Source: a virus
DNA: 20,461 nt
Virus record (IMG/VR): IMGVR_UViG_3300044624_000249
Span: 1-20,461 of that record
Reading direction: 5' to 3' (one strand)
Shown here: positions 229-16,576 of the stretch, piece by piece
Layout of the letters: each line of letters begins with the position of its first letter
Position numbering within the stretch: the stretch's first letter is position 1
The notes under the pieces: generated by a model
Told to the model about the DNA's origin: nothing
Seen by the model: only the letters and a program-made list of their open reading frames with translations
Databases searched by the model: none
Position numbers and translations under genes: made by a program

Positions 229-237
229 TGTATTTAT
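229..237 (-). promoter_or_regulatory. T4-like late promoter motif, ATAAATACA (copy 1)
   Basis: The coding strand reads TAACATAAATACAAG just after the fibre stop codon and 66 bases before the next ATG. The core matches the T4 late promoter consensus TATAAATA except at its first base. It shares TAACATAAATACAA with the copy at 2639..2647. Promoter function is inferred from the motif and its placement; no -35 element is expected for this class. Confidence 0.55.
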
Positions 238-243
238 GTTAAG

Positions 244-2106
244 TTACTTGTAACCGATTTCGCCTGTAGTTGGATTATAATACAATTGTACAGTAAAATC
301 TACGTTACCAGTTACGTCACGAATTGGTTTTACAAACAAACTATTTGCTTGTGTACTATCCAATCCAGTAACTGCATTTCCTGCATGTACAATAATTGTA
401 TTAGTATGTTGATTAAGTTTACCTGCTCTACCACCAATTGCAATTGCATTAGCACCTTGTTTTTCTATACCTGCTTCCCAACCGATTGCTATAGAATTTC
501 CACCTTGTGCATTAGCAGTATTTCCTGTACCAGCGGCATAATATCCAATTGCAATTGAGCCATTTCCTTGTGGCGATTGAGCGGCATAACTTCCTACTGC
601 AACAGCGCCTAATCCTTGACTTCCTAAATATGCCGCTTGTCTACCAATAGCAATTGCATCACCCAAGTCGCCATTTGCACCTGCTAATCTACCAATACCA
701 ATAGATGCATTACCTGCATTTGCTTGTTTTGCTTCAGCACCTAAGCCGATTACCCAAACGTTACCAGTACCTGATGACCCAGCATTATAACCAATAAATG
801 TAGTTAAGTTTGCACTTACGTTTTTACCCGCACCAAATCCAAGCGCAACACCATTTTGACCTGAAGAGTTTGCACCTGCACTCACGCCAATTTGCACTGT
901 ACCTTCGCCACCTGCGGCATTGCCTGCACCTGATCCAATAGCAATACGATTAGTGTTGTTTGCAGAATTACCTGCACCAGCACCAATAATAACTGCTGGT
1001 TGTGTGTCTCCTGTATACGTGGCTGCACCATTACCTAAAACAACACTATTGCTTAGTAATCTAAATTGTTTAGTTGTTAATGTTGTACCACTGATATTTG
1101 CAACGTTTGCATTTCCTGCAACGTTGAATGTAATATTTCCATTTGCAACAGGAATACTTACATTACTATTTCCATTTGAAAGTAATGCCGCACCAATATT
1201 GGTTAATAAACTACCATCGCCTGAAAAGAAATTAGCAATTGCAAGATTGCCTAAGTTTGCATTACCTGAACTTAAATTGCCAGACACAGATAACGATGTT
1301 AATGTACCAACACTAGTAATGTTAGGTTGTGCGTTTACAGTTACTGTATTTGCTAGATTTGCTGAATTGGCATAAGTTGCATTTGCCACAGTTCCAGTTA
1401 CATTTGCTCCTGGAATATTTGTTAAGTTAGCACCACTACCATTGAATAAGTTTGCAGTTACTGTGCCGTTACTATTCATATTACCATTTAATGTAATAAA
1501 ACCAGTAGTAACTGCGGCAGAATTAGTAGTACCACTTACAATTAGTGATGTTAATGTACCAACACTAGTAATGTTTGGTTGTGCATTAGTTGTTAATGTA
1601 CCAGTAACTGTGCCTGAAACTATTAAGTTTCCAGGAATAGCAACGTTGCCAGTTACTTCATTAAATGTAAATCCAATATTTCCACCAAATGAACCTGCGT
1701 CATTATATTGAATTTGTGTATTACTACCGCCAGGTGTGCCATTGCCTCCACCATTACCAGCAGCCGACCAACCTAAATTGCCTGTACCATCTGTTTGTAA
1801 AAAGTAACCATTTACACCACCTAAAATAGTAACATTGCTTGCATCGCCTAAGTTTGCATTATCACTTGCAACAAAATTATCAACAGTTACAGTATTAGTA
1901 GAATTGTTAAATGTAAACGCATTACTACCAAACAATGCACCATTGAAGTTGAATTGCACATCTGTGTTTGAGCCAGCCGCAATTGGCGCAGACCCTGTAA
2001 AAATGTTCAAATTAATTGCATTTGGAGTAATACTAATATCACTCACTTCTGGCTGAAATGTAGCCTCAATCTGTTGAACAACAATGTTTGATAGAATTTC
2101 ACTCAT
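244..2106 (-). CDS. Tail fibre protein with trimeric-adhesin-like IAIG repeats (620 residues)
   Basis: This is probably a receptor-contacting fibre at the distal end of the tail. Residues 1-130 are a Ser/Asn/Thr-rich region with a Gly-rich hinge near 117-128. Residues 174-188 and 258-272 repeat NAQPNITSVGTLTSL, a repeat common in marine phage fibres. Residues about 372-565 carry roughly a dozen IAIG/AIG-x-x-AG units (for example 388-395, 484-492, 517-525, 538-546, 554-562), the pattern of the left-handed trimeric beta-roll of YadA-like heads. The last 35 residues (SLFVKPIRD, then LYYNPTTGEIGYK) resemble the end segment that often precedes a chaperone domain in such fibres, but no S74 peptidase domain follows. 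The start overlaps the preceding stop as TAATG, with AAGG upstream. Trimer formation is inferred from the repeats. Confidence 0.85.
   Translation of the reverse strand: MSEILSNIVVQQIEATFQPEVSDISITPNAINLNIFTGSAPIAAGSNTDVQFNFNGALFGSNAFTFNNSTNTVTVDNFVASDNANLGDASNVTILGGVNGYFLQTDGTGNLGWSAAGNGGGNGTPGGSNTQIQYNDAGSFGGNIGFTFNEVTGNVAIPGNLIVSGTVTGTLTTNAQPNITSVGTLTSLIVSGTTNSAAVTTGFITLNGNMNSNGTVTANLFNGSGANLTNIPGANVTGTVANATYANSANLANTVTVNAQPNITSVGTLTSLSVSGNLSSGNANLGNLAIANFFSGDGSLLTNIGAALLSNGNSNVSIPVANGNITFNVAGNANVANISGTTLTTKQFRLLSNSVVLGNGAATYTGDTQPAVIIGAGAGNSANNTNRIAIGSGAGNAAGGEGTVQIGVSAGANSSGQNGVALGFGAGKNVSANLTTFIGYNAGSSGTGNVWVIGLGAEAKQANAGNASIGIGRLAGANGDLGDAIAIGRQAAYLGSQGLGAVAVGSYAAQSPQGNGSIAIGYYAAGTGNTANAQGGNSIAIGWEAGIEKQGANAIAIGGRAGKLNQHTNTIIVHAGNAVTGLDSTQANSLFVKPIRDVTGNVDFTVQLYYNPTTGEIGYK
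1295..1332 (-). repeat. 38-bp direct repeat inside the fibre gene (copy A)
   Basis: This segment matches 1547..1584 at 37 of 38 positions by direct reading; the difference is the A/T at base 30. It encodes the core of the second QPNITSVGTLTS unit (about residues 260-271). Near identity at the DNA level, third codon positions included, suggests recent duplication or gene conversion rather than only protein-level constraint. Confidence 0.8.
1547..1584 (-). repeat. 38-bp direct repeat inside the fibre gene (copy B)
   Basis: This is the partner of 1295..1332, 252 bases away, an exact multiple of three, so recombination between the copies would keep the reading frame and delete or add 84 residues of fibre. 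It encodes the first QPNITSVGTLTS unit (about residues 176-187). Confidence 0.8.
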
Positions 2107-2621
2107 TATTGATACCTTACAATAACGCCAATCGGTTCTTTGTTAAAATTAATTTCTGAACTTAATGCATCAGTGCGTGATACGCCCATTGTAACTACAA
2201 CTAGTGTTGATGGATTTGCTGTGCTTGCCGCACTTGATGGAATTACTGGTGTACCATCACCATTAACGTTGCCTGTTAAATCAGAAGGAATATAGATATA
2301 TCCCAATCCGCTTGCCGCAGTTGTAAATGCCGCAGTTAAGTTAGCACTGTATGTGTTTGCACCAGTATTAGGTTGTGGACTAGATAATGTTAAATTACCC
2401 AACACAACTTCATCTGGATTTAATGTTGAATATTCAACTGTACTGCAACTCCAAAATTTAGCAGTTGCATTTACATTCCAACCAGTACAGTCAATAGGCG
2501 CAGTATTTGCGTATGTAAATTGAAATGGCAAGGTATAACTTTCGCCAGTGTAAATTTCGATACACTGCATCTCAGTACCAGCAAGTGTTAGTGTTTTAGA
2601 TCCGTTTAATAATAAACTCAT
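2106..2621 (-). CDS. Putative tail-tip or baseplate structural protein (171 residues), function unknown
   Basis: It lies between the tail-tip protein and the fibre, so a fibre-attachment or tip-decoration role is likely by position. The N-terminal part (MQCIEIYTGESYTLPFQF at 18-35, then a CTGW turn) looks like the small beta-sandwich at the start of BppU-like receptor-binding proteins, in which an aromatic strand is followed by a 'D/C-T/L-T-G' turn. This is recognised by eye only. The middle is Thr/Ser/Asn-rich and the end (KEPIGVIVRYQ) is a beta strand. The start has a good site (TAAGGAAAC) and is 17 bases from a late promoter-like motif. The stop codon overlaps the next ATG by one base (TAATG), so expression is coupled to the 620-residue fibre. 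Confidence 0.8.
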   Translation of the reverse strand: MSLLLNGSKTLTLAGTEMQCIEIYTGESYTLPFQFTYANTAPIDCTGWNVNATAKFWSCSTVEYSTLNPDEVVLGNLTLSSPQPNTGANTYSANLTAAFTTAASGLGYIYIPSDLTGNVNGDGTPVIPSSAASTANPSTLVVVTMGVSRTDALSSEINFNKEPIGVIVRYQ

Positions 2622-2638
2622 GATTTTGTTTCCTTATT

Positions 2639-2647
2639 TGTATTTAT
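2639..2647 (-). promoter_or_regulatory. T4-like late promoter motif, ATAAATACA (copy 2)
   Basis: The coding strand reads TAACATAAATACAAATAAGG, starting at the last bases of the tip-protein stop codon. If transcription begins about six bases downstream of the core, as at T4 late promoters, the leader would be only about a dozen bases, holding little more than the AAGGA ribosome site for the gene that starts at 2621. Function is inferred. Confidence 0.55.
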
Positions 2648-2648
2648 G

Positions 2649-5474
2649 TTATCTAATTAGATAAGCCTGAAAGCCGCCACCAGTTACGTCAACTCTAACT
2701 CCTGCCCCATCAACTTTCATCATTACCCCTTTACCTAAAACTAATGATGTGGGCGAACTATAAGTAGTTGCTGAAACTTGGATTGGTTGATTTTCAACTA
2801 ATCTATGAGTTGATAATTGAAATCCAGTATCACACTGTGGCATATTGGGGTTTATGTTAAAATTGTTAAACAGTGCTATTTGTACGTTTGCATTTGCATT
2901 AGCAACCATTTGCAGTGCCAAATCAAATCTTACACTAGTACCTGCAGTAGAGTTTCCAGAATAATTTTCATATTCAATAACCCACCAATCATGATCTCCG
3001 TTATTGATTAGTAGTTGAGCCGCGCCCCATGGATTATATTGTGATGTACTGTCTGCAATATATCCATTAGCAGTAGATGAAGTGTTTTGATAGAATGGAA
3101 AATAATAATTTGCACCGATACTTCCGTTGCCAACTAAGTACTTTGGCGTATCAAAATTTAAATTTCCAATATCTGTACCAAAGGTAGTAATATCTACAGG
3201 AAGTACAATATTTCCACCACCAACTGCAATATCGTACCCATATCCACTTAATGGTTTCATGCCACCACTACCTGCAGCCATATTAACGTAGGCAATAGTA
3301 TTTGATTGAATGTTATTGCCAGTAATAGTATTCGCTTGAATGTTATTACCTTGAATACCACCAGCAGTAATTCCAATACATGCATTGCTTAATGCAACAG
3401 TTGGAACTAAGTTAAGATTAAATTGTGTATTACTTACAACATTTGCAACACGTGTGTTTGCTTGTAACGTACCAGTACCACTTGTAATAGTTACAAAACC
3501 ACCTACTGATAAGTTAGCAATACTATCTGATGTAACTAACGTACCACTACTATTTGCATTACATGCCGCAAACGTTTGATAACTTGTAACATTAGTACCA
3601 GTCCAACTAATGCCAGTGCTTGCATTTGAACGAGCACCAGCATACCTATTACGTGCTGTAACAGACCAGTAATATGTATTGCTTGCTAGATCACCACTGT
3701 TAATAGTTATCAATGTGTTACCAACTAATGGTAAGCCATTTGCACTGTTAACTGTAGTATAAAATTTATGATTTGCAGTATTGCTATCAGTACCAACGTT
3801 AAAATCTAAGTTAGTAACTAGACCTTCATAAGGAACATTACCTACAACTTGCATTTGTGCAATTGTGTTTGCAATTTCTAATGTAACTGCTGGTGCGTTT
3901 GGAGTTCCAATAATATTAGGATCGGTCAATCCAGTGTTATCTGCTGGAATAAAATCAGTAATATCTAAATCGTCATCATAGATAGTTCCATTATACTCAA
4001 ACGCTTGAATTTTTGCACCTAATGAACCATCTGCAAATTTCTCTTCAATTACAGTACTAACTCTGAATAACTTGTCAGTCCATCCATACTCTGCTAATGT
4101 AACTTTAACAACATCGCCTGCTTCTATCTGAATACCTGAATAGTCTAATTGAAAACCAATTACTAAATCTTCACGACTTTGTAATAGTCTGCGAATACCA
4201 ATAAACTTGGCTTGCACAAAGTTGTTAACCAATTGATTTTGTATAGTTAGTTTATTGACTGGTTCATTAGCACTAATCAGTGCAGGATACTCAGCAAACA
4301 AATCTACATATGCATAATTAGTTTGATCTTTGATGTTAGTATCTGGATATTGCATCTCTAATTGATTAAATGTACCATTTAAGTCAACAGGGCTAATATC
4401 AATACCACCAATTAAGTTAGTGCTTGTAACACTATACAAATCATTGATTGTTAATGGGTCTGGTGTTTGATCGTATGCCTTATTGATGACAACTTTCCAC
4501 TTACCACTAATTTCGCTATACTGCAACCAACTATCACATGCGTCTACTAAGTTTTGCAAGTTAGTTAAGCAATCAATACCTGTATCTAATGGTCCATTGA
4601 TACGATAACGAACTTGTGTTGCTGGATTACCATTAACGTCAGTGTAATCAATTAGTCCATCACTATAACTGTCTAATGCAGTTAAACTTGCAGTGTCAAT
4701 CTGTGCTAATGGAATACCACAGCCATAACGTTCATTCTGCATATAGTCAAGCATGACTTCGCCTGGCTTAGTTAAACTGCATGTAATTTTAGCAGTTAAT
4801 GTACCTAATCCAGTAATGCCTGCGTTTTCATCATAGATTAGTTTAACAATCATGAATGCAGTGTTGCTCATAGTTGGTGATTCACCACCTGTTGTATAGA
4901 TAGGACCATTCCAACGTTGATCTGCAGGAATACTTGCATCACTTAAAATTTGACTTGCAGTGAGTCCGCCTGTGTTCGTACCACTACTTGATCCATTAGG
5001 GAACAAGTAAATGAAAATCTTGTTTGCAACTTTTGTATCTACTTGTGGACTGTTTTGTGCGTTGTTAGTTAAACTTGCAACTGCGCCATTTGTACCAAAC
5101 GTTACTAACTTATTGTCATAGTAAATTTGATCAAACGTAATTGTTTCACCATCTGGAACTTCACTTACTGCCTGCACAAACCACATTGTCTTTTGGTCTG
5201 TACTAATTTTTGCATCAGTAATCGAACTACCTAAGAATGCAGTACCATATGATACTGGCAATTTGTTATTTGTTGCTGGCGGCAACTGAATACGTGCGCC
5301 ACTAGTTTCTGCTCCTGCGGCTTTACTGCCTGCACGATTACCTATTAGTTTGCTGACAGCAAACGCCAATACTGCTTGTATTGCAAACTTAGCAACAAGA
5401 CTTGCACCACCTGTAACAATGGCAAGACCAATAACGGCTGCTACGCCAAGAATCTTTTTTACCGTCTTACCCAT
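2649..5474 (-). CDS. Tail tip / central fibre protein, lambda J-like by position (941 residues)
   Basis: This is probably the tail-tip hub and host-contact protein. Residues 8-24 and 27-45 are hydrophobic and glycine/alanine-rich, as at the start of many siphovirus tip proteins (lambda I/J type); they need not be membrane anchors. Residues 60-330 hold conserved-looking tip features (LPVSYG at 72-77, MWFVQAVSEVPDG at 97-109, a GIPL segment near 253, a CDSW segment near 313). Residues about 525-625 look like a fibronectin-III-type domain with a YYWSVTARN strand. Residues 709-728 repeat GNNIQ-x-NTI twice. The C-terminal 200 residues are beta-rich and may contact the receptor. The start has AAGGAG upstream and overlaps the end of the acetyltransferase gene by eight bases (ATGGGTAA). 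The assignment rests on size, order and motifs. Confidence 0.82.
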   Translation of the reverse strand: MGKTVKKILGVAAVIGLAIVTGGASLVAKFAIQAVLAFAVSKLIGNRAGSKAAGAETSGARIQLPPATNNKLPVSYGTAFLGSSITDAKISTDQKTMWFVQAVSEVPDGETITFDQIYYDNKLVTFGTNGAVASLTNNAQNSPQVDTKVANKIFIYLFPNGSSSGTNTGGLTASQILSDASIPADQRWNGPIYTTGGESPTMSNTAFMIVKLIYDENAGITGLGTLTAKITCSLTKPGEVMLDYMQNERYGCGIPLAQIDTASLTALDSYSDGLIDYTDVNGNPATQVRYRINGPLDTGIDCLTNLQNLVDACDSWLQYSEISGKWKVVINKAYDQTPDPLTINDLYSVTSTNLIGGIDISPVDLNGTFNQLEMQYPDTNIKDQTNYAYVDLFAEYPALISANEPVNKLTIQNQLVNNFVQAKFIGIRRLLQSREDLVIGFQLDYSGIQIEAGDVVKVTLAEYGWTDKLFRVSTVIEEKFADGSLGAKIQAFEYNGTIYDDDLDITDFIPADNTGLTDPNIIGTPNAPAVTLEIANTIAQMQVVGNVPYEGLVTNLDFNVGTDSNTANHKFYTTVNSANGLPLVGNTLITINSGDLASNTYYWSVTARNRYAGARSNASTGISWTGTNVTSYQTFAACNANSSGTLVTSDSIANLSVGGFVTITSGTGTLQANTRVANVVSNTQFNLNLVPTVALSNACIGITAGGIQGNNIQANTITGNNIQSNTIAYVNMAAGSGGMKPLSGYGYDIAVGGGNIVLPVDITTFGTDIGNLNFDTPKYLVGNGSIGANYYFPFYQNTSSTANGYIADSTSQYNPWGAAQLLINNGDHDWWVIEYENYSGNSTAGTSVRFDLALQMVANANANVQIALFNNFNINPNMPQCDTGFQLSTHRLVENQPIQVSATTYSSPTSLVLGKGVMMKVDGAGVRVDVTGGGFQAYLIR

Positions 5475-5940
5475 TAATTAACTCCTTAGTATCACATACC
5501 CATATTAATTCATCTTTTGTATAACCAAAACGTGAAAAGTCTAAGTTGTGCATTGTTGTAGGCGCATTGATTGTAAAGAAATTAATCTTTTGTTCAATTT
5601 GCAAGTTCTTGCATTCATCTGTAAATTTCTTAATTAATCTATATGCAATTGTGCCTTTTCTATGTTCTTCTTCAACATACAATAACATTTGATGCATGAA
5701 TAAGATATCTGGGCACCAAACATTTGGTGATTTCATTCCTACCATTATAGCAATTGGTTTATTATCTTTTTCATATACAAGTGCAAGACCTAGACCATGA
5801 ATGATACCATTGTATAGTTTGCTTAGATATTCGTCATCAAGTTCTGCACCTGGAAAATAGCCAACGTCATCATCCATGTGTACCTTATGCACACACTCAA
5901 TAAAATAGTTTACGTCAAATTTATTTGCTTCTCTAATCAT
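5467..5940 (-). CDS. GNAT-family N-acetyltransferase-like protein (157 residues)
   Basis: The fold pattern is that of GNAT enzymes, which move an acetyl group from acetyl-CoA to an amine. The N-terminus MIREANKFDVNYF is a typical beta1-alpha1 start. Residues 52-70 (LALVYEKDNKPIAIMVG) form the beta2-beta3 hairpin. Residues 85-106 (MLLYVEEEHRKGTIAYRLI and onward) are motif A with the CoA loop. The loop is degenerate: where R/Q-x-x-G-x-G/A is usual, H93 and I98 occupy two conserved positions. A strand (INFFTINAP, 119-127) and FSRFGYTKDE (135-144) fit the end of the fold. It sits three bases after a minor tail gene and overlaps the tip gene, with no clear ribosome site, so translation is probably coupled. 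Its target is unknown; it may act on a virion protein. Confidence 0.8.
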   Translation of the reverse strand: MIREANKFDVNYFIECVHKVHMDDDVGYFPGAELDDEYLSKLYNGIIHGLGLALVYEKDNKPIAIMVGMKSPNVWCPDILFMHQMLLYVEEEHRKGTIAYRLIKKFTDECKNLQIEQKINFFTINAPTTMHNLDFSRFGYTKDELIWVCDTKELING

Positions 5941-5943
5941 TTG

Positions 5944-6636: not shown

Positions 6637-6646
6637 GACTTATTCC

Positions 6647-7336: not shown

Positions 7337-7346
7337 GTTTTATTCC

Positions 7347-10265
7347 TTATGCTGTTCTATATGGTGTTTCTTTTTTAGCCATTTCAACAGCGCCAAATAA
7401 TGTTCTGCGATTTTCAGCAAATAGTTGTGCAACTGATTTTGCATCTAAAGCACTAATGTTGTTAGTGATGTAAGTGTTGTTTACTGATCCAGATACGTTA
7501 TTACCGCCTTTACCGCCTCCAATTTGATCGTTTGGAATGATTGTGCCTGCTGTTCTAGGAACAAATAGTTCTGGGCCTTTTTCACCAACAATACTTGGTT
7601 TATTAACTGGAGGACTACCACCTTCTGCGAAGAAACCAATTGCAGTTTTAGCAATGTTAAGAAACAATTTTGTAGCAGTTGCTTTTAGTTCAACCATAAG
7701 CAAATCTTTAATGATTGATAGTGCAAAATCTTTAAACTTAAACTTGCCTGTATTAACAAACTCATCCAATGCTCTGCCCATATTTGCAAAAACTGAATCA
7801 AATTTTTCCAAAGCAACTGCCGCAGGATCAATACTACGTTGCAACTCTTCCATTCGTTTTCCAATTGCCGCAGTAACATCATTACGTTCTGAATTTTTCT
7901 TGGCTGCTTCAACTTTCTTTCTCTCTGCCGCTTGTGCTTCAGCACTAGCAATTGCTTCGTTTTTAACAGCATTAGCAGTTTCAACTGCAAGCGCATAACG
8001 TTCTGCGCCTAATTTAAGTTTTTCTTTTTCTAGTTCAAGTAAAGTATTTTGATATGTAACTTCAATCTGACGCAAACTATTTTGTAGTTCAAGTTGAGCA
8101 GTAACTTCATCAAGTTTATCACCGTACAGTCCAACTAATTCTAGTTCGTCTGTAATAGCCTTTAAAGCAGCCTCATTGGTATTGGCAACTTGCTTTAAAT
8201 CTTGCAAACTATTTCTTTTCTCAAGTGCAATATTTTCTTTTTCAATTGCTTCTGCCGCTTTTTCAGCGGAATCAAGTTGTTCAACAGTTGCGTTTTTGAT
8301 TGCAACACGTTGCTCTCTGATTAGTGCAAGCGATGTAGCCCTTGCTTGATCAGTTAATTGATCATTTTCCATAACTTGACGTTGCTTATCATCTAACTGT
8401 TTAAGCGCATCACTCTGTTCTTTAAGAATATCACGTTTTTGTGATGCCAACGTAACATCATGTTCACTCATCTTAAGTGAATCAAATTGAAATTTTAGGT
8501 CGTCAAGTCGTGTTTCTGATTGCTGTGTAAATGCACTAGTAACTTCAAGAATGGCACGTTTTAAATCTCTAAACGCATCTGCTTGTCGTTTTACTCTTTG
8601 TGTTTCTTGTTTAGTAAGATCATTTTTGTGCTTGTCTCTAAGTGCTTTGGCCGCAGCCTCTTCTTCTTGTTTCTTTTTAAGAGCAGCCGCTTTTTCATCG
8701 TCAGAAGCAGCCTTTGCGGCTCTATCTTCGCCAGCAACGCCTGAGATTTCTTTTAAGTAATTATAAAATTCTCCTAATTTATTCATACCTGTGTTAAGAT
8801 AGCCAATTAGTGAAGTTAGCCATCCAGGCGATGATAGTTTTGAAGTAACACTATCCCATGCTTTTCCAACTGAGTCAAATATTGGCGACAATTGGTCTGA
8901 TAGATAACTTCCAAGAAGTTTTAATAGTCCGATTGCAATTCGCACTACTTCGACAAATTTATTAAAAATACCACCAAAATCAATAAGATTTTCTTTGCTT
9001 CCAGTAATTGATTTGTATAGTAAATTAATTACTTCAACAATACCAGTAAAAATGGCAATCCAACCTACAAAGCGCATTCCAATGCTGAATATTGCTTTAA
9101 ATATGTTGCCTAAAGATAATGTAAGTTGAGAAATTCTTGCTATTATTCCACTCAATCCTGTTAAAGTACCAGCAGTTTTTAAAATTTTACCACGTGACGA
9201 ATCAAATACGCCAAAAGCAGTACCAATACCAACTAAACTGTTACTGATACTTTTTAAATCTTTAGTGAACACGACACTAAAGCCACGTGCATTTGCACTC
9301 AAGCCAGTCATTGCTGATGCAAGACCACTCATTGCGGCTACTGCTAATTGAGGACCTTTAACAAGTGTTAAAAAGGCAATTGCTATACTAGAAACAAGTG
9401 AGAATATAGATTTAAGACTAGAAGCAAGACTATTAACATCAGTAGTTAACTTTAATACTGCGTTGGCGGCATCAATAAACACTTTTGCAGGGCCAGGCTC
9501 TTGTGATAATGCATCAAAAGCAATAGCAGCCGCTGTTCTAATGTTAGTGAATCCTTCAGCAATTGTTGGAGTTGTTTTTGCAAACTTCTCTTCAATTGAA
9601 TCAGCAGACTTTAATAGTGCTTCAGTTACAACTTTTGCAGTTAACTTGCCATCTTCTGCAAGTTCACGCATTTTACCAACTGGTACACCTATTGACTTAG
9701 CAAGTTCCATCATTGTTGATGGTGATGCCTCGAACACAGCGTTAAATTCTTCACCGCGCAATACGCCTGAACCCATTGCTTGGCTAAATTGTAGAATAGC
9801 ACTTGCAGATTCTGCCGCAGTTGCACCACCAACCTTCAACGATTTAGTGAAAGATTCTGTTATTTGACCAACTTGATCTTGCGATAGACCCAATTGAGTA
9901 GAAGCAACAGTTAGTTTACTGTACAGATCACCTACTGAACTTAAATCACTGCGTGAGCGACCAGCAATGCCTGCAAGAGTACTAAATTTCTGATTGACTT
10001 CTTCTTGAGTAGCACTAAACGCACTTAATTTATTGCGAACACTTGTTACGGTGTCTGATAATGACGCAAATCCGGCAGAAATAGCACCTACTGCGACAAC
10101 TCCTCCTAGTCCTCTAAGAGAATCACCGATCCCCGACACTTGTTTTTGTAACGCACCAAAGCCTTTGCCGCCCGTACCCATGCGTCCAATCTGTGCTTGC
10201 AATCTATTAAGAGAACTTGTTGCACTACTTGTATCAATGTCTACTGCATATGTTAAACTGGCCAT
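7347..10265 (-). CDS. Tail tape measure protein (972 residues)
   Basis: It sets tail length and passes through the tail tube at DNA ejection. Residues about 78-235 are a clear tape-measure N-terminal domain (TIGR02675 type), including FNAVFEASPSTMMELAKSIG at 174-193 and LREL/DGKLTA features. Residues 286-305 and 390-420 are hydrophobic helices, usual in tape measures and possible membrane-insertion segments. Residues 515-800 are charged heptad-like helix (Lys/Glu/Ala-rich coiled coil). Residues 879-910 carry the C-terminal signature EGGSPPVNKPSIVGEKGPEL, with FVPRTAGTI after it. The start has TAAGGATTATAC upstream. Following the usual rule of about 1.5 angstrom per residue, a tail of very roughly 145 nm is predicted. 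Confidence 0.95.
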   Translation of the reverse strand: MASLTYAVDIDTSSATSSLNRLQAQIGRMGTGGKGFGALQKQVSGIGDSLRGLGGVVAVGAISAGFASLSDTVTSVRNKLSAFSATQEEVNQKFSTLAGIAGRSRSDLSSVGDLYSKLTVASTQLGLSQDQVGQITESFTKSLKVGGATAAESASAILQFSQAMGSGVLRGEEFNAVFEASPSTMMELAKSIGVPVGKMRELAEDGKLTAKVVTEALLKSADSIEEKFAKTTPTIAEGFTNIRTAAAIAFDALSQEPGPAKVFIDAANAVLKLTTDVNSLASSLKSIFSLVSSIAIAFLTLVKGPQLAVAAMSGLASAMTGLSANARGFSVVFTKDLKSISNSLVGIGTAFGVFDSSRGKILKTAGTLTGLSGIIARISQLTLSLGNIFKAIFSIGMRFVGWIAIFTGIVEVINLLYKSITGSKENLIDFGGIFNKFVEVVRIAIGLLKLLGSYLSDQLSPIFDSVGKAWDSVTSKLSSPGWLTSLIGYLNTGMNKLGEFYNYLKEISGVAGEDRAAKAASDDEKAAALKKKQEEEAAAKALRDKHKNDLTKQETQRVKRQADAFRDLKRAILEVTSAFTQQSETRLDDLKFQFDSLKMSEHDVTLASQKRDILKEQSDALKQLDDKQRQVMENDQLTDQARATSLALIREQRVAIKNATVEQLDSAEKAAEAIEKENIALEKRNSLQDLKQVANTNEAALKAITDELELVGLYGDKLDEVTAQLELQNSLRQIEVTYQNTLLELEKEKLKLGAERYALAVETANAVKNEAIASAEAQAAERKKVEAAKKNSERNDVTAAIGKRMEELQRSIDPAAVALEKFDSVFANMGRALDEFVNTGKFKFKDFALSIIKDLLMVELKATATKLFLNIAKTAIGFFAEGGSPPVNKPSIVGEKGPELFVPRTAGTIIPNDQIGGGKGGNNVSGSVNNTYITNNISALDAKSVAQLFAENRRTLFGAVEMAKKETPYRTA

Positions 10266-10274
10266 GTATAATCC

Positions 10275-10571
10275 TTATTTTTTACGCATTATATTATTAA
10301 TGCGTTGTGTAATGTAATCTGTAGTTGGTTTAGACATGCCTTCTGGTGCTTTATTGCTTTCGCCTGCATCTAATTCAGTTGCATAAGGGTAATCTGCTAC
10401 AATTTTATTGCCTTGCAAACGAGTACGTTTACGTGCATTGCCTGATTGAGCAGGAGTAGCGGCTTTAAACACTTCATAGGCTTCTCTAGGCACATTATTT
10501 AATTGCTTTTGTATGCGCTGAAGGCTCGGAGTAATAGTATTGCTGACGAGTCTAAATTTAATATTAGCCAT
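10275..10571 (-). CDS. HK97 gp10-like tail/neck component (98 residues)
   Basis: The start MANIKFRLVSNT (10571) is preferred because AAGGG lies upstream and the ATG overlaps the chaperone stop as ATGGCTAA; an upstream in-frame ATG at 10598 has no ribosome site. The segment TPAQSGNARKRTRLQGNKIV, then ADYPYATELDAG and APEGM, matches the short HK97-gp10-like family, whose usual form has 'TPVkTGnar' and 'YPYA..LdeG.s.qAP.GM'. That family normally joins head to tail or completes the tail, and its gene usually lies before the tail-tube gene. Here it lies between the chaperones and the tape measure. Confidence 0.75.
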   Translation of the reverse strand: MANIKFRLVSNTITPSLQRIQKQLNNVPREAYEVFKAATPAQSGNARKRTRLQGNKIVADYPYATELDAGESNKAPEGMSKPTTDYITQRINNIMRKK

Positions 10572-11120
10572 TATCTTTACCCTTATTAAACATTTCAAGT
10601 AACTGATCAGTAGAATATACTTCTGCTGGTACTTGCCCTTTATTCATAGATTTTTTGTGGTGAAAATTTTCGTAACTCAATGCCGCATCAATAACATACA
10701 AATCAAATGTGTCTGCTCTTTTTAAGATTTCGCTTGGTAATAGACCATATCTTTTACCAAGCCCATCGATTTGCATTATTGAGAGCATTTCTCTAGAGTC
10801 TACATTTATTTCACCACCTGTTACTTTCCCAACTGTTCTGTAATCTTAGCAATAACTTTCATCAAAATGCCTGTTGGCAAAGTGCTTTCTTTAGTAAGAA
10901 TTTGTTTGCCTTCTTCGTCAAGAATTAATGTTCTAACGATTTCTACTAATGCACCAACGTCATTTTTTTCACTCAAATTTGCAAGACGAGTGAATACGTC
11001 CATTGGTTGGCGATCCCAAGTATAAAAGGTTAGTGCTTCCTTATATTCCTTGATGACTTCCTTATCGTCAATGGATACTTCGATTAATTTTGGTGCTGAT
11101 GCGAGTTGTGATAATTTCAT
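10564..11120 (-). CDS. Tail assembly chaperone, frameshifted long form (lambda GT-like, 185 residues)
   Basis: This is the fusion made when ribosomes slip back one base at GGGAAAG (10830 to 10824). Ninety-nine frame-0 codons (11120..10824) are joined to 86 codons of the -1 frame (10824..10564). The -1 frame is open from the slip site: it continues VTGGEINVDSRE into MLSIMQIDGLG, so the downstream ORF that could start at ATG 10788 has no need of its own start, and that ATG has no convincing ribosome site. The T-like part contains LPSEILKRADTFDLYVIDAA, as expected for the extension that recruits tail-tube subunits to the tape measure in lambda. The stop overlaps the next gene's ATG. Frameshifting itself is inferred from sequence. 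Confidence 0.85.
10821..11120 (-). CDS. Tail assembly chaperone, short form (lambda G-like, 99 residues)
   Basis: This is the frame-0 product ending at TAA 10823..10821, directly after the slippery heptamer. It is a small acidic-basic helical protein with FYTWDRQPMDVFTRLANLS at residues 32-50, typical of tail chaperones placed between the tail-tube gene and the tape measure. It would coat the tape measure before tube polymerisation and be absent from the mature virion. A ribosome site (AAAGGAAAAAC) precedes the ATG, and a late promoter-like motif lies 25 bases upstream, so this gene probably starts a transcription unit covering the tail tip genes. Confidence 0.85.
   Translation of the reverse strand: MKLSQLASAPKLIEVSIDDKEVIKEYKEALTFYTWDRQPMDVFTRLANLSEKNDVGALVEIVRTLILDEEGKQILTKESTLPTGILMKVIAKITEQLGK
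10824..10830 (-). other. -1 programmed frameshift site, G_GGA_AAG
   Basis: Codons in the zero frame read TTG GGA AAG TAA. The heptamer GGGAAAG fits X_XXY_YYZ and is identical to the lambda G/GT slip site. After slippage the tRNAs re-pair on GGG AAA and decoding continues GTA ACA GGT. The stop codon is immediately adjacent to the heptamer. Downstream there is only a weak short hairpin (AGAG with CTCT around 10781..10798), so any stimulatory structure is not obvious. Confidence 0.88.
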
Positions 11121-11145
11121 TTGTTTTTCCTTTAAGTTGTTGTAA

Positions 11146-11154
11146 TGTATTTAT
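11146..11154 (-). promoter_or_regulatory. T4-like late promoter motif, ATAAATACA (copy 3)
   Basis: The coding strand reads TGAATAAATACATTACAA, overlapping the stop codon of the 60-residue gene and lying 25 bases before the chaperone start. These 18 bases are identical to those at copy 4 before the scaffold gene. Promoter function is inferred. Confidence 0.6.
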
Positions 11155-11333
11155 TCAGAATCAATTGATTCTAATAGTTGATTAAGCAGTGCAAGACGAA
11201 ATGTTTGCTTTGCTTTTAGTTGTTTGATTGTGGCCTGCATGTTGTCTAACATGGGCATCATTTTTGCTTCGTCTGCGATTAGACTACGCAATTTTTCTTG
11301 ATCTGTTTTTAACCAGACGTTTTCTTCGTTCAT
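11151..11333 (-). CDS. Small helical protein between the tail tube and chaperone genes (60 residues), unknown
   Basis: The start at 11333 (MNEENVWLKTDQEKLR) is chosen because AAGGA lies seven bases upstream; an ATG five codons earlier (11348) would place that site inside the coding sequence. The chain is charged and predicted helical (EKLRSLIADEAKMM, then NMQATIKQLKAKQ), possibly a short coiled coil, and ends ESIDSE. No family is recognised. It lies between a strong intrinsic terminator and a late promoter-like motif, so it may be expressed only by read-through from the tail-tube transcript. Confidence 0.65.
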   Translation of the reverse strand: MNEENVWLKTDQEKLRSLIADEAKMMPMLDNMQATIKQLKAKQTFRLALLNQLLESIDSE

Positions 11334-11353
11334 AATTTGTTCCTTCATTTGTT

Positions 11354-11382
11354 AAAAAAGGGGAATAGTTTCCTACTCCCCT
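11354..11382 (-). terminator. Intrinsic terminator after the major tail protein gene
   Basis: The coding strand forms a 10-bp stem, AGGGGAGTAG with CTATTCCCCT (one G-T wobble), closed by a GAAA tetraloop and followed directly by TTTTTT. This is a canonical rho-independent terminator, 25 bases after the tail-tube stop codon. Confidence 0.92.
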
Positions 11383-11407
11383 CTTTATTTCACTTAGTCA
11401 GTAAAGA

Positions 11408-11893
11408 TTAAGGGTTTTTGCCAACAGTCATATCACCATCGACAGCAAGTGTCATTGGTGATACCCAAACAGGCGCTTCTGGACTAACAGTTGGTGCAAG
11501 TGATGAGATATAACCCACGCCAGTGTAGTAGTATGCGTTTGCTGTTGAGGCATTGCCATTCATTACAATCTTGAATGAAACAGGAACTTTATTAATTGAA
11601 AGTCCTGAAATACCTAGCACTGCGGCATTACCTGATGAAGAACCAGGTGTTGTGCCAAAGTATCCTGTTGGATCGATAACGATATTTGTAGAAATTTCGT
11701 TATCTGCAGGTGTTGTGATTTTGTTTGTGTCGATAGAACAGAAGTCTGTCCATGCAAAGATACCAGTTGAATTGGTAATCGTAACATCTTGCAAACAAGT
11801 AACTGATAACGCGGCGTTAGCAACGTTAGAAGTGTCGGTACTAACCAATAGTGTTGGTTGAGTACCTGTTGTATTTACGGTAAGTCTTGCCAT
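11408..11893 (-). CDS. Major tail (tube) protein, probable (161 residues)
   Basis: It would form the stacked hexameric rings of the tail tube. The evidence is its place just upstream of the chaperones and tape measure, its own strong ribosome site (AAGGAGAAATAAA) and a strong terminator right after it, as expected for an abundant protein. The sequence is beta-rich with few charged residues: MARLTVNTTGTQPTLLVST, then a central NEISTNIVIDPTGYF and ending MTLAVDGDMTVGKNP. The length is in the small range for tube proteins. No sheath-like gene is beside it, which supports a non-contractile tail. No diagnostic motif is visible, so the call is mainly contextual. Confidence 0.75.
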   Translation of the reverse strand: MARLTVNTTGTQPTLLVSTDTSNVANAALSVTCLQDVTITNSTGIFAWTDFCSIDTNKITTPADNEISTNIVIDPTGYFGTTPGSSSGNAAVLGISGLSINKVPVSFKIVMNGNASTANAYYYTGVGYISSLAPTVSPEAPVWVSPMTLAVDGDMTVGKNP

Positions 11894-11918
11894 TTTATTT
11901 CTCCTTAAGGTTAGTGGC

Positions 11919-12365
11919 TTATGTATTAAATTCTAGTCGTGTCATCTGAAATGTCCAGTCGTGACGTTCTGCTTGTGTTGGACCATATACCAGATTTTGT
12001 TCAAAAGTTACACTAAAGTAACCATTAAACAATGGTATATTGTTAATTTGATCTACTGTTAAGTTAGCAATGATAGCATTAACTTGTATATTGTAAGGAT
12101 CATCTTGGAAACTAATATAAGTAACTCCAAATTGATCTACAGCATTATAAATGCTACTACAATATGTAACACCCAATTGATTGACTGACCTGCTTACAGT
12201 GTGTACATCACTGACGTAAACGCCATAACGTACAACATCTGCTACACTTGGAAAGTCATCATAGATTGGAATATTCCATTCATTAGGAATAGTTAATCTC
12301 AATGCGTCGATAATCTCACTGGTTGTAATGAGAGGAGCATTCAATGGAACATAAGTTGTTACCAT
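11919..12365 (-). CDS. Putative tail terminator / tail completion protein (148 residues)
   Basis: Its position directly before the tail-tube gene matches that of the ring protein that caps the tube and joins it to the neck. The N-terminus (NAPLITTSEIIDALRLTIP, 8-26) starts with a helix, and residues 27-50 (EWNIPIYDDFPSVADVVRYG) fit the alpha-beta fold of tail terminators, where a helix is followed by 'P-V-Y-D' and a strand. The C-terminus has GYFSVTFEQNLVYGP and DWTFQMTRLEFN, two strands. Family membership is inferred. Translation is coupled to the upstream gene through a TAATG overlap, with AGGAG inside the upstream gene. Confidence 0.6.
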   Translation of the reverse strand: MVTTYVPLNAPLITTSEIIDALRLTIPNEWNIPIYDDFPSVADVVRYGVYVSDVHTVSRSVNQLGVTYCSSIYNAVDQFGVTYISFQDDPYNIQVNAIIANLTVDQINNIPLFNGYFSVTFEQNLVYGPTQAERHDWTFQMTRLEFNT

Positions 12366-12892
12366 TAGAAATATCTCCTATCTCCGTTAAAGAAATTAGG
12401 GTCTGCTGTCCAGTTCTCTTCAAGTTTCGTTGTAGGCCCTTGAGGAGCATCCATGAACAAGTCATACCAATTGCTTAACTGAGTTGCTTTATCCCATTCT
12501 TCTTCACATCGCATCTTAGCAAAATCATAGTTCATCCTGTCAACTTCGTTCATGTTTGAAACGTCAGTAACAAGACTTTCATAGAATACTAAGATAGCAC
12601 CAAAGGTATCAAGTCTACGCAATGTTTGATCATTTTTAATTAACAAACTAGGATCAAATGAACTGATTAATTGTCCATTAGGCAGATTCGTATAATAGTA
12701 AGCACCAATTACTGTGTCGCAGTAGTTCTGCCACCAGCCAAATTCCATCTTATATAGCCACTCTTGTGAACTGACTCTAAAATATGGATCCCAATCGATT
12801 CGTAATGCTTCCGCACGGCGTTCAGCCGCAGGGTCGTAAAACTGAATTGTTTGCACAGTTGCATCTGAGATTCTTTGAAAGGGTACTGACAT
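12365..12892 (-). CDS. Putative head-tail connector/neck protein (175 residues)
   Basis: It follows the capsid gene and precedes the tail terminator-like gene, the normal slot for adaptor or stopper proteins. The N-terminus is MSVPFQRISDATVQTIQFYD; the chain is rich in Tyr and Trp (EWLYKMEFGWWQNYCD) with helices around 80-150 and a C-terminal tail ending FFNGDRRYF. No family is recognised. The start is preceded by TAGGAAAATAAT and follows a large hairpin after the capsid gene, so its level is probably set lower than that of the capsid protein. Confidence 0.65.
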   Translation of the reverse strand: MSVPFQRISDATVQTIQFYDPAAERRAEALRIDWDPYFRVSSQEWLYKMEFGWWQNYCDTVIGAYYYTNLPNGQLISSFDPSLLIKNDQTLRRLDTFGAILVFYESLVTDVSNMNEVDRMNYDFAKMRCEEEWDKATQLSNWYDLFMDAPQGPTTKLEENWTADPNFFNGDRRYF

Positions 12893-12911
12893 ATTATTTT
12901 CCTAGACAAAT

Positions 12912-12937
12912 GAGAGAGTATGTTTCCATACTCTCTC
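12912..12937 (-). terminator. Strong hairpin with GAAA loop after the capsid gene (weak terminator or RNA-stability element)
   Basis: Eleven perfect base pairs (12912..12922 with 12927..12937) are capped by GAAA on the coding strand. The bases after the stem read ATTTGTC, so the U tract is poor. It lies eight bases after the capsid stop codon. It may act as a partial terminator or protect the capsid mRNA 3' end; which of these is inference. Confidence 0.75.
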
Positions 12938-12945
12938 TATTCAGA

Positions 12946-14001
12946 TTAATCCTGAAGAATGTTAATTGCACCACCACGACGACCGTCGCCGACGCCAGCA
13001 CCGAAGTATCCAACGCCTGTGAGCCACATCTGTAAGCCTCCCGGAGTTTCTCCAGTCTTTAACTGTAGACCTTCCTTCATAACAGTGAACAATGCACTGT
13101 CACCGAAGTAAGCACCAACAAGCACTGGGCTTGCTGAACCTTGACCGAGTAGAATACGGTTTGCAGACTGCAAGAAGGTTGTGAACATGATTTGGCAACC
13201 ATATACAGATTCAATCTTACCAGTTGACAACAGTTCGTTACCAAGTGCAGACAAGTTTGAACCGCCTGCTTGTGAAACTGCACCACCGGTCAATTCAGCA
13301 AGAAGACGAGTCAATGAAGAACCGCTTCCACCAGCCGCACCAGCAACATATTCAGTTACATAACCGTTAGAGTCAAGAACGATGACAGGAGCACCTGGCA
13401 TACGAGCAACCTTGAAGTTCTGCTTGATGTTGCGAACAAGTTCAAGCACTTCACTTGCAGAGAAGCCAGTTGTCCAACCTGCAGTGTTTGAAGGAAGACC
13501 TGCAGAAAGCAGTTCCATAGCACCTAGTGCTGTTACACGGTCGAAGCCGTCATCAGAAGTTGGATAGAAAGTGTTACCTGGAGTTGCTTTGAATGACAAG
13601 AATGCCTTAGTGACACGTTGGTCAACTTTTTCAGCGAATGACTCGCCAAGTTCTGCACCAAGAGTTGCTGCCAACTGGAATGATGTAGTCCAGCCGTAGA
13701 AAATGTCGAATGCAGTTGTTGCAACTGCTGGTGATGCAGTGATAGAACCTTGACCAAGTGATGGGTTCTGTACAACTGCGTTACCTGTTCCCCAAGTACC
13801 ACCAGTACCATTTGGATTATAGTCCGCGTAGGTAATTGGTGCGAATTGTGGAACTAAAAATTCGTTACCCTGTGTAGGTGTAACAACGTTGGTCATGTTA
13901 ACAAGACCGATTGATTCGTGCATTGCACGTAGTGCGAATCCAGCGATTGCAGTTGTAAAACCGTCGCCTTCATTATTTGCGCCGCCTAAGACGTATGCCA
14001 T
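12946..14001 (-). CDS. Major capsid protein (351 residues)
   Basis: It forms the icosahedral shell, most likely with the HK97 fold. It follows the scaffold gene, has the strongest-looking ribosome site (TAAGGAGATAATATC), and its codons are visibly richer in G and C at third positions than neighbouring genes, which suits very high expression. Residues 1-50 (MAYVLGGANNEGDGFTTAIA and onward) resemble the N-arm of capsid proteins in marine phages. FLVPQFAPITYADY at 48-61, an aspartate-flanked helix LGESFAEKVDQRVTKAF near 118-134 and the C-terminal FTVMKEGLQLKTGETPG near 308-324 are compatible with the P domain and the last strand. No N-terminal delta domain for proteolysis is evident. Confidence 0.88.
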   Translation of the reverse strand: MAYVLGGANNEGDGFTTAIAGFALRAMHESIGLVNMTNVVTPTQGNEFLVPQFAPITYADYNPNGTGGTWGTGNAVVQNPSLGQGSITASPAVATTAFDIFYGWTTSFQLAATLGAELGESFAEKVDQRVTKAFLSFKATPGNTFYPTSDDGFDRVTALGAMELLSAGLPSNTAGWTTGFSASEVLELVRNIKQNFKVARMPGAPVIVLDSNGYVTEYVAGAAGGSGSSLTRLLAELTGGAVSQAGGSNLSALGNELLSTGKIESVYGCQIMFTTFLQSANRILLGQGSASPVLVGAYFGDSALFTVMKEGLQLKTGETPGGLQMWLTGVGYFGAGVGDGRRGGAINILQD

Positions 14002-14026
14002 GATATTATCTCCTTATTGTTGGCAA

Positions 14027-14803
14027 TCAGAGTATTTTTCGACTTGATGTTTGTGCAGATGCAGTTACTTTAACGCCTTTGAGTCCAAGATTCTTACCTA
14101 ATCCGTTACGTACAGCCCATGCATTAAATGCGGCTGGGTCACGTGAATAGTCTGGAATCCCATCATCCATAGCGCCTGCAAACTGACCACCATTTGGTCG
14201 TAAGCCTGAACCAGAAGACCCATTACTCTGTTTGAGAAGTTTAGGATTACCCTTTGCAACTTCTTCTACAAGTCCTCTGATTGTTAGAGGAGAACCATCT
14301 TGACCATAACGTTCACGACCCTTATTGTCGATAATTGCATAAGAGCCATCGTCATTCCACTCAATGTTGGACTTGACTTTGGTCAATGCATAATCTAATA
14401 GATCAGAATCAAATCTGTCTCCCATTGCTCGCTGAATATCAGAATCCAATTCCTTCTCACGAATCATTTGGTCTTTACGAGCCAAATCCATTTGAAGTTT
14501 TGAAAACTGTTCATGCAAGTCGTTGGTTGTGACACGACTCGAACGTTGATTGTTTTGAGGTTCTACTGGCTGTACGTTGCCACCGGATTGTTGTGCAGTT
14601 GTACGTGCAATGAAACTTAACGCCGCTTCAACTGATTCAAAGTTTTGTCCACTAGCGTTGCTAAGTGCATTCAAAATTGAATTAGTGGTGCTTTTACGAA
14701 TTGCACCTGGATTTACGTTCTGCTCACCATGATCGTCCATTTCTGAACCCTGCATAGTATCAGGGGCTTGATCGTTGCCAACGAAGTTAGATTTAATATC
14801 CAT
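14027..14803 (-). CDS. Capsid scaffolding protein (258 residues)
   Basis: It probably guides capsid assembly from inside and is then removed. It sits between portal and capsid, and has the usual composition: a disordered acidic N-terminus (MDIKSNFVGNDQAP), a central helix likely to be a coiled coil (NDLHEQFSKLQMDLARKDQM, then IREKELDSDIQRAM, about 93-127), and a C-terminal region rich in Gly/Asn and basic residues (GKNLGLKGVKVTASAQTSSR). No serine-protease or ClpP-type catalytic pattern is visible, so it does not look like a protease-scaffold fusion. The start has TTAAGGAACAATTA upstream, and a late promoter-like motif lies 48 bases before the ATG. Confidence 0.78.
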   Translation of the reverse strand: MDIKSNFVGNDQAPDTMQGSEMDDHGEQNVNPGAIRKSTTNSILNALSNASGQNFESVEAALSFIARTTAQQSGGNVQPVEPQNNQRSSRVTTNDLHEQFSKLQMDLARKDQMIREKELDSDIQRAMGDRFDSDLLDYALTKVKSNIEWNDDGSYAIIDNKGRERYGQDGSPLTIRGLVEEVAKGNPKLLKQSNGSSGSGLRPNGGQFAGAMDDGIPDYSRDPAAFNAWAVRNGLGKNLGLKGVKVTASAQTSSRKIL

Positions 14804-14851
14804 TAATTGTTCCTTAAGTTATAACGTAACAAACGAATTTTTGTTTTGTAA

Positions 14852-14860
14852 TGTATTTAT
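14852..14860 (-). promoter_or_regulatory. T4-like late promoter motif, ATAAATACA (copy 4)
   Basis: The coding strand reads TGAATAAATACATTACAA, the same 18 bases as at copy 3. It lies in the 79-base gap between portal and scaffold, and would drive scaffold and capsid independently of the portal. Confidence 0.6.
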
Positions 14861-14882
14861 TCAATGCTGATAGAATTAGTTT

Positions 14883-16502
14883 TTATCTACCCACGTTGAG
14901 GCCACTTAACTGTACTGCTACAGCCTGTTGTGGATAATATGTAATACCCATATTAGTTACTGGGGTGCCAGCACCACCTAGAATAGATGTGTTGTCATCG
15001 TCACCACCTGCTTCTTCTGATGCTTCTTCTTCATTATCGTCTTCACCATAATTTTCGTGAATTGGAATCATCGACGGACTTAAGTCACGTGACTGAATCA
15101 TTTCATTTGTTTCAGTCATTAGTGTTTTAAGTTTTAAATCTTGAATATTATCAATGAATACTTGTTCGTATTCTTGAATTTGTTCTTGTGGTGCAAGCAT
15201 ACCAATAAGTTCTCTAGCAACTAAACTGCTGATTACTGCATCATCTGGTGCAAGTGCTTTTGCTTCTTTGATTAGTGCCATACGATAGTTAGTATCGTGT
15301 GCTTCATAGTCAGTGTTATAAACTACTTCACCAGCCCAACGCATGTCCATAAAACGTGCGGCATAAGTGAAAATCATTTCTTCTGTGACTTCCATTAATC
15401 TTGCTTTGGCTTTTGCTAATCTATGCAACTGCTTGCGTTCTTCAATAATAGCAACGCCACTAGCGATTTGGTTCTTGCTATTACGCAATCCACCTAAGCC
15501 AGTTAGTGATTCAATCTGTTCTAAGATATCTTGTTGCTTTTTAATAATCATGTCAACATCGCCAGTATCAACTGGAATGGCTTCAATCTGACCTTCAGTA
15601 GCACGAACAATAGCACCTGCGTGTACTGGGATGTTAATGCCTTTGTCTGCACGAATTAATGTATGTGCGAATTGTAAAGCACTGTATGCTTCACATTCTA
15701 ATTTGTAATGTTCACGCTGTGCATCAGTTGCGGCATCAATATCTGATACGCCAATGTCGATTGAACGTGGGTCACGACGGCCATATGCAATGAATACTGG
15801 TATAGACATTCCTAATGGGAACGTACCCTCACCAATAAGTTTCGCTGGCTTGTCACTGTTGATGCCATTAGCACCTTTTTCTACTTCATAACTTTTCCAG
15901 TAACTTGGAGTTGTTGCACTACCTAAGTGATAACACTTGATGTAATAGCAATCTTCATCTTCCATTTCTTTAATCTTAACGTACTTAAGAATTGGTCTAC
16001 CACCGTAATAATCAAAATTCCAATCCCATACGTCTAATGGGCTGATTGCGCAAGTATATGGGCGACCTAAGTTGCCATCTTTTGCTTGGGGCATATCCAC
16101 CGCCACCCATGCATGGCCGAAGATACTTGTTAAATCACCAACACCTTCCATGAAAGCAGTTAACGTTCTATTGTTTAAGTCTGCATCTAATGTGAATAAG
16201 TCTGCCCACTCTGAATTTTTAGGGTTGATGTATGCACCACTTGATGTACAGAACTGCACATTGCGCTTAATGCCTGGCTCAAACAATACATCATTAATTG
16301 TGTCAACGACATAGCGAGTAATAGGTTGCGCAACAGTATTTGATATCAAATCTTGCCATAGATTTGAGTCTTCACTTGGTCTTTTCTTACGCACATATTG
16401 CTTGAAGGTATAACCACCTAGATAGGCATATTGGTAAGCCAGCATCTGCTCATAAATGGCCGAATAGATGGGACTCTTTTTTAGTAATTCTGATGTGTTC
16501 AT
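14883..16502 (-). CDS. Portal protein (539 residues)
   Basis: It forms the dodecameric DNA gate at one capsid vertex and docks the terminase. The length suits a portal. Residues about 55-80 (SNTVAQPITRYVVDTINDVL) are the helical start, 125-175 the wing region (FGHAWVAVDMPQA, then ISPLDVWDWNFDYYGG). Residues 260-290 (GVSDIDAATDAQREHYKLEC and onward) and 330-385 (IIKKQQDILEQIESLTGLGG, then IEERKQLHRLAKAKARL) form the stem and tunnel-loop helices. The C-terminal 60 residues include an acidic stretch (EDDNEEEASEEAGGDDD), common in portals. The start is weakly served (GAGAG upstream), and a late promoter-like motif lies 61 bases before it. Confidence 0.9.
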   Translation of the reverse strand: MNTSELLKKSPIYSAIYEQMLAYQYAYLGGYTFKQYVRKKRPSEDSNLWQDLISNTVAQPITRYVVDTINDVLFEPGIKRNVQFCTSSGAYINPKNSEWADLFTLDADLNNRTLTAFMEGVGDLTSIFGHAWVAVDMPQAKDGNLGRPYTCAISPLDVWDWNFDYYGGRPILKYVKIKEMEDEDCYYIKCYHLGSATTPSYWKSYEVEKGANGINSDKPAKLIGEGTFPLGMSIPVFIAYGRRDPRSIDIGVSDIDAATDAQREHYKLECEAYSALQFAHTLIRADKGINIPVHAGAIVRATEGQIEAIPVDTGDVDMIIKKQQDILEQIESLTGLGGLRNSKNQIASGVAIIEERKQLHRLAKAKARLMEVTEEMIFTYAARFMDMRWAGEVVYNTDYEAHDTNYRMALIKEAKALAPDDAVISSLVARELIGMLAPQEQIQEYEQVFIDNIQDLKLKTLMTETNEMIQSRDLSPSMIPIHENYGEDDNEEEASEEAGGDDDNTSILGGAGTPVTNMGITYYPQQAVAVQLSGLNVGR

Positions 16503-16576
16503 AAAATTATTTTCTCTCGCATTAATCTGGCAAATGCAGGTAATTCATCGTTTAGATAGATATTGTATTTATGCAT
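16499..16576 (-). CDS. Possible 25-codon mini-ORF linking the HNH and portal genes
   Basis: A tiny open frame fills the whole gap: its ATG overlaps the HNH stop as TGATG, and its TGA overlaps the portal ATG as ATGA. The peptide would read MHKYNIYLNDELPAFARLMR and five more residues, with a plausible amphipathic helix. The end-to-end junctions look like translational coupling, but no good ribosome site precedes it and it contains the late promoter-like motif, so the frame could be chance, or the remnant of a gene split when the HNH element entered. Confidence 0.3.
   Translation of the reverse strand: MHKYNIYLNDELPAFARLMREKIIL
16564..16572 (-). promoter_or_regulatory. T4-like late promoter motif, ATAAATACA (copy 5)
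   Basis: The coding strand reads GATGCATAAATACAATATC, seven bases or fewer after the HNH stop and 61 bases before the portal start. It would let the portal be transcribed late, without the terminase and HNH genes. Confidence 0.5.

Follow-up and report, generated by a model that had tools for sequence, protein, structure and literature searches.

Five copies of the 9-mer ATAAATACA in the virus record IMGVR_UViG_3300044624_000249 are probably promoters of a single class, in which a stand-alone −10-type element would be recognized by a factor other than the housekeeping sigma. The window analyzed here is the whole of this IMG/VR record, a genome fragment of 20,461 bp. It belongs to a family of small (~35 kb), lambda-ordered, uncultured bacterial viruses, and more than 200 IMG/VR relatives of the window virus were recovered by capsid or terminase. 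The promoter reading is based on the strand bias and placement of the motif, the occupation of the same five gene positions in relatives, the helix of a small RNA that begins 4–7 nucleotides (nt) after ATAAATA, the different signal used by early operons, and the presence of the same core at gene starts in T4 and in large phages coding gp55.

All five copies are found on the minus strand, the one that codes throughout the window, and their positions and common orientation, noted by eye in the first-pass annotation, proved exact. Element 1 (229..237) is located before a fibre-type gene at the left edge (gene start at 162), whose family, c12, carries the motif in most relatives. Element 2 (2639..2647) precedes a gene of 171 amino acids (aa; start at 2621) and a 620-aa fibre-like gene, and element 3 (11146..11154) precedes a 99-aa gene (start at 11120) of the pre-tape-measure operon. 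Element 4 (14852..14860) stands before the scaffold (start at 14803) and major capsid genes, and element 5 (16564..16572) before the portal gene (start at 16502), just after an HNH endonuclease gene. On either strand of the window, ATAAATA occurs only at these five sites, and each is extended to ATAAATACA. The comparison with shuffled sequence called for earlier gave 0.80 expected copies of the 9-mer in dinucleotide shuffles, and five or more were seen in 0 of 100 shuffles. The 7-mer itself is not enriched (5 versus 8.1 expected), so what is unusual in the window is the extension to nine bases, the restriction to a single strand and the placement at gene boundaries, not the 7-mer count. Approximately 4.7% of window positions are non-coding enough for the motif, and all five copies fall there (p ~2e-7). 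The claim that every copy is intergenic stands for the gene-boundary placement but not in its strict form, since the site at 11146-11154 supplies, with its TAA, the stop codon for a 65-aa open reading frame (11151-11348).

The motif was also observed as a trait of the family. In 149 related loci, which partly overlap, ATAAATA occurs 414 times in sense and 41 times in antisense orientation, and ATAAATACA 269 versus 4 times, while five permuted 7-mers used as a control were roughly balanced between the strands. The equal strand density named beforehand as the outcome that would speak against promoters was thus not found. The motif is carried by all 19 of the largest records. Across 20 records (567 kb, 96.5% coding), intergenic DNA holds 119 of the 174 ATAAATA copies; of the remaining 55, 40 share the strand of the gene. 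An unbiased k-mer test on 272 upstream regions returned ATAAATA as the top sense-biased 7-mer (101 versus 9). In the same regions, exact ATAAATACA was counted 61 times, compared with 0–15 for each single-substitution variant; the only variant in double figures has G for C at the eighth base (15), and most others were found 0 or 1 times. The ATAAATA core tolerates almost no substitutions, a rigidity that exceeds the usual tightness of sigma-70 promoters. The family consensus is GNATAAATACAWTAT, with G at −2 and with C and A after the core. As for a −35 element, no conserved column was present from −60 to −5.

In most relatives, the motif precedes the portal, scaffold and pre-tape-measure genes as well as the genes of families c16 and c12. 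The proposal of single-element, T4-late-like promoters in front of the virion units (portal, scaffold-capsid, pre-tape-measure gene and fibre genes) was borne out in the window and in nearly all relatives. Its restriction to late genes was not, as in some relatives the motif also precedes replication genes (a DNA-polymerase-like gene and a primase-helicase operon), an AAA ATPase gene, and c46, c30 and Dps genes. The gene of a 606-aa polymerase-like protein is preceded by the motif in two relatives. Structured leaders were observed right after ATAAATACATTGT-type promoters at L160:12261-12390 (+), L163:5363 downward (−), L174:4857+ and L066:19+; they are located before the polymerase-like gene or the c46 gene, and their GTGGATCA...TGATTCAC-type stems co-vary between genomes.

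In relatives that extend past the fibre genes, a region before which the window stops, the end of the virion operon carries an extra ATAAATA followed by a non-coding segment of ~73–120 nt. Seventeen ATAAATA sites in relatives lead into such a non-coding RNA, whose ends pair in a covarying helix of 12 bp, as at L158:10166-10262 (+), L174:2718+, L166:3555+, L155 upstream of 2701 (−), L163 upstream of 6602 (−) and ~12 more loci. The RNA ends in GTAG...CTAC, contains internal GCCAT segments in many copies, and follows the Dps gene where this is present. MAFFT handled the helix poorly; for the ends, a scripted manual alignment was used. Pairing was found in 97.5 percent of cells versus 68 percent (maximum 81) with shuffled partners, a statistic biased upward because the sites were found via a helix search. 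Several pair types occur at most helix positions from 4 to 12, with many compensatory changes, and the shared GTA...TAC ends and the common place, which the search does not force, argue against chance. No Rfam family matched the small RNA at the gathering threshold in the sources searched. Its conserved 5′ G lies 4–7 nt past ATAAATA (mode 5) and is most often the sixth nucleotide. In T4 late promoters, +1 is six nt after the core; the 5′ G thus stands where T4 late geometry predicts the start, which points to a promoter. From this RNA end in relatives, we infer that transcription would start ~6 nt after the core. A start about 6 bases downstream, as the first-pass annotation had anticipated, would agree with the position of the G. 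Just downstream of the small RNA, an Rfam COG2908 RNA (RF02939, E 1.5e-17) was identified at L158:10326-10370 (+).

A second class of promoters is present in the early operons of several relatives, which carry consensus TTGACA-N17-TATAAT sequences. In genome G001, six of the seven sigma-70 matches (at least 11/12, each preceded by TG) are located just upstream of genes opposite in strand to the virion genes, and similar promoters were identified in G003, G004, G008 and G009. These canonical promoters indicate that the host enzyme reads a signal there that is distinct from ATAAATA. In several records, no strong sigma-70 match was found before the early genes, and some matches elsewhere, inside genes, are probably due to chance; within the window, the number of sigma-70-like matches is uninformative (68 versus 67 expected). 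At L156:14199-14233 and 14459-14491 (+), inverted repeats TAGCACAGATTTGACAGTAAATCAAGTCTGTGCTA overlap early-operon sigma-70 promoters in the manner of an operator.

T4 late promoters (TATAAATA), found in Straboviridae and relatives, depend on gp55, gp33 and gp45, and T4 late transcription is taken as tied to gp55 and a T4-type replisome. The elements described here resemble them in the invariant ATAAATA core, the lack of a −35 element, the AT-rich start region, the predicted start ~6 nt downstream, the use before head and tail genes and, in relatives showing their early operon, the separate sigma-70 early promoters. The position of the T4 late promoter box has been described previously (PMC2988020). 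At the first motif position (−13), the family does not keep to the T (or A) of T4 late promoters, with A in 40, C in 31, T in 24 and G in 3 percent of copies versus T in 83 percent in the T4 late region. Further differences are the G at −2 and the CAWTAT downstream, where T4 has T at −1, the small lambda-ordered genome, the use before replication genes in some relatives, and the lack of any gp55 or gp45 found (gp45 without a dedicated search). The analogy with T4 holds for the build of the promoter; membership of the gp55 system fails on gp55 itself.

In phages of the P2 Ogr and lambda Q kinds, an activator or antiterminator turns on the late genes after the early genes. These systems rely on an activator site that precedes sigma-70 promoters or on a single long late transcript, and neither yields repeated −10-only elements before each unit. 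No published description of such promoters outside the T4 type was found in the open-access literature. The distant named relatives of the family are the Pelagibacter phages HTVC202P and HTVC026P and the lake phage DSL-LC06 (OR003941, L212; Dishui Lake, 29.8 kb, circular, deposited as a complete genome), which have distantly related terminase large subunit (TerL), portal and scaffold proteins in the same module order. DSL-LC06 carries seven sense and one antisense ATAAATA, as in the family, although most of its sites are without the CA extension and both c21 and c23 are missing, whereas the pelagiphages show no ATAAATA strand bias. DSL-LC06 also encodes many glycosyltransferases and methyltransferases, and no replication or transcription gene is annotated in it.

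Under the promoter reading, the element would comprise the consensus given above, with its rigid core at about −12 to −6, a start ~6 nt after the core and no −35 box. The early operon would be transcribed first from ordinary sigma-70 promoters, after which the host RNA polymerase core, with a specificity factor other than the housekeeping sigma, would open the ATAAATA promoters. These would drive partly nested units consisting of the portal, scaffold-capsid-head completion, tail and fibre genes, the small RNA and, in some relatives, replication genes.

The first-pass annotation had suggested that the lineage has a gp55-like factor of its own or one of another class. The gp55-like alternative was not supported, as nothing credible was recovered from the large relatives with gp55 profiles, Sigma70_r2 or PF00940. 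Even at E values as high as 10, neither the window nor any of 19 large relatives gave a gp55 match (T4 positive control, 2.5e-70), and phrog_234, phrog_12791, a 7-member custom profile and an enlarged profile gave none in the small phages; phrog_12791 and the custom profiles do detect gp55 in four large phages. When 23 non-virion families were compared with gp55 profile to profile, no probability exceeded 3 percent, and 94 non-virion representatives compared with Pfam and PHROGs yielded no sigma, clamp or transcription factor family. For the sliding clamp gp45, no clamp family was present among the representative non-virion proteins, no dedicated whole-genome search having been made, and the coactivator gp33 did not turn up in the non-virion protein scan, again without a dedicated search. 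The one sub-threshold Sigma70_r2 match (G011 13145-13264) was dismissed because it lies within the tape-measure frame. The absence of gp55 is not merely a matter of missing sequence, as G006 is a complete, circularly permuted genome of 34.4 kb, whose terminase gene runs across the two record ends and lacks a single residue there.

Even so, a factor, gp55-like or not, may fall below detection or reside in early genes outside the window, and profile methods can miss a short, fast-evolving factor. As the reader of the motif, we tentatively place a phage-coded protein, whose divergence or novelty would keep it from being recognized as gp55, ahead of a host sigma factor and of a borrowed gp55, at rather less than even confidence. 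In similarly cautious terms, the reader may be a phage-coded factor that is not a gp55 homologue, such as c21 or c23, or the gp55 of a co-infecting giant phage. Families c21 (19515..20006, −) and c23 (19879..20217, −) are non-virion families without a known family assignment, present in nearly all large relatives and both encoded in the window; they are putative candidates for parts of the transcription apparatus, c23 being the second candidate, and a role in transcription is a guess. As a recognizable sigma fold, c21 was rejected, its model (predicted local distance difference test, pLDDT, 75) being mostly helical with no structural match.

A scan for AGHATAAATACAWTAT returned, among the matches listed, members of the small-phage family and unrelated contigs. 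Several large phages among these matches code gp55, and those that do place ATAAATA at gene starts, as does T4. The PA5oct-like and other large environmental phages of the gp55-coding kind (G024, G031, G032, G040 and G033) share this placement with the small family but differ from it in their large genomes, in a gp55 of ~280–314 aa where found, and in the preferred −1 base. Some of their sites match extended sites of the small phages exactly (AGCATAAATACAATAT and AAGCATAAATACATTAT). On average, the large phages have G or C at −1, whereas a G at −2 and a more pronounced CA following the core mark the small family; the extended consensus was not shown to be identical to that of one large-phage lineage, and with these differing flanks a shared reader is no more than a possibility. 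G024 and G032 have the tail-fibre families c0 and c12 in common with the small phages, which suggests overlapping hosts. G033 (203 kb) carries the motif without a gp55 match; given 54 percent identity between its TerL and the TerL of gp55-coding PA5oct-like phages (~287 kb), it is probably an incomplete contig.

Among other possible readers, an alternative host sigma factor is rather unlikely. No factor was identified in the phage, and genomes with differing early genes carry an identical promoter, as would suit a host protein, but the same ATAAATA core is used by gp55-bringing phages in unrelated hosts, and we know of no host sigma with such a −10-only core. It is improbable that the small phages pirate late transcription, with the motif read by the gp55 and sliding clamp of a co-infecting large T4-like phage. 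The common fibre families, the identical extended sites at gene starts of gp55-coding phages and the lack of a detected gp55 in the small phages fit such a dependence, which is not obvious in phages that bring complete virion modules and sigma-70 early promoters of their own; the average flanks differ, and the motif itself was the criterion for choosing the large contigs. A promoter for a phage single-subunit RNA polymerase was rejected as very improbable. The candidate enzyme is the 606-aa protein (L161:2230-4050 (+), with relatives in L160, L169, L171 and L174), which has motif A/B/C-like segments with RVHDSF and no Pfam match; the ATAAATA motif before its gene in two relatives would fit this reading. 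Only some members have it, however, as it is absent from the complete circular G006 and from G002, G001 and G005; its low-confidence model resembles family A DNA polymerases first, and PF00940 had no match in any record, in a search without a positive-control signal.

A site acting in RNA, for processing or protein binding in intercistronic leaders, appears quite improbable. Its position between cistrons, downstream of stop codons and on the sense strand only, and the structured leaders after some copies would be expected of such a site; the terminal helix of the small RNA, however, starts just past the motif and leaves it outside the folded RNA, the core equals a known promoter element, and early operons with sigma-70 promoters do without it. 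Chance or a codon-usage artefact deserves practically no credence: base composition is AT-rich (38% GC) and the 7-mer by itself shows no enrichment, but the strand ratios, the intergenic placement and the conservation of positions across dozens of relatives already refute it. Several considerations weigh against the promoter reading itself. The searches found no factor to read the motif, all start sites are inferred from sequence comparison, the small-RNA sites were favoured by their selection through the helix, and, in principle, RNA processing or binding could likewise account for a rigid motif at gene boundaries.

Widespread small phages with a near-T4 promoter core but without the T4 parts would imply a new minimal sigma-like factor, a host factor of T4-like specificity or late-promoter piracy. 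If the reader is a non-gp55 phage factor or a borrowed gp55, T4-style late transcription would have two separate origins or be shared across phage classes. The motif also offers a simple handle for annotating transcription units in these uncultured genomes.

The window encodes terminase, HNH, portal, scaffold, capsid, tail, tape measure and fibre genes, all on the minus strand, and no near-identical isolate of the virus was found. The terminase large subunit gene (17016..18449) is followed by the HNH endonuclease gene (16576..16995), the portal gene (14883..16502) and the scaffold gene (14027..14803). In nearly all relatives, the HNH gene is likewise placed between terminase and portal, and in some the portal promoter lies within its 3′ end. 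The major capsid gene (12946..14001), assigned by its position after the scaffold gene, was found in 20 of 20 records, and there is a distant match to the protein annotated as capsid in DSL-LC06. The conserved 99-aa gene (10821..11120) precedes the tape measure gene (7347..10265; PHROG E 1.6e-71), and the 171-aa gene (2106..2621) precedes that of the 620-aa fibre-like protein (244..2106). The left-edge c12 gene (1..162) is cut by the record end, and the leader between it and element 1 contains a short hairpin, ACCCCAT...ATGGGGT (191-221).

Bacterial genomes were scanned twice, for relatives of TerL and of the capsid protein, and gave no host, and no tRNA genes were found as a host clue. A ferritin/Dps-like gene was identified near the end of the virion operon at L166:3090-3524 (+) and in nine other genomes, and between portal and scaffold instead in G002 and G011; its closest named phage relative is in the freshwater cyanophage S-SRM01 (34.7 percent identity). 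In G003 (L159, L160; 36 kb), families c22, c23 and c24 each occur at two places, which points to either duplication of a module or an assembly chimera.

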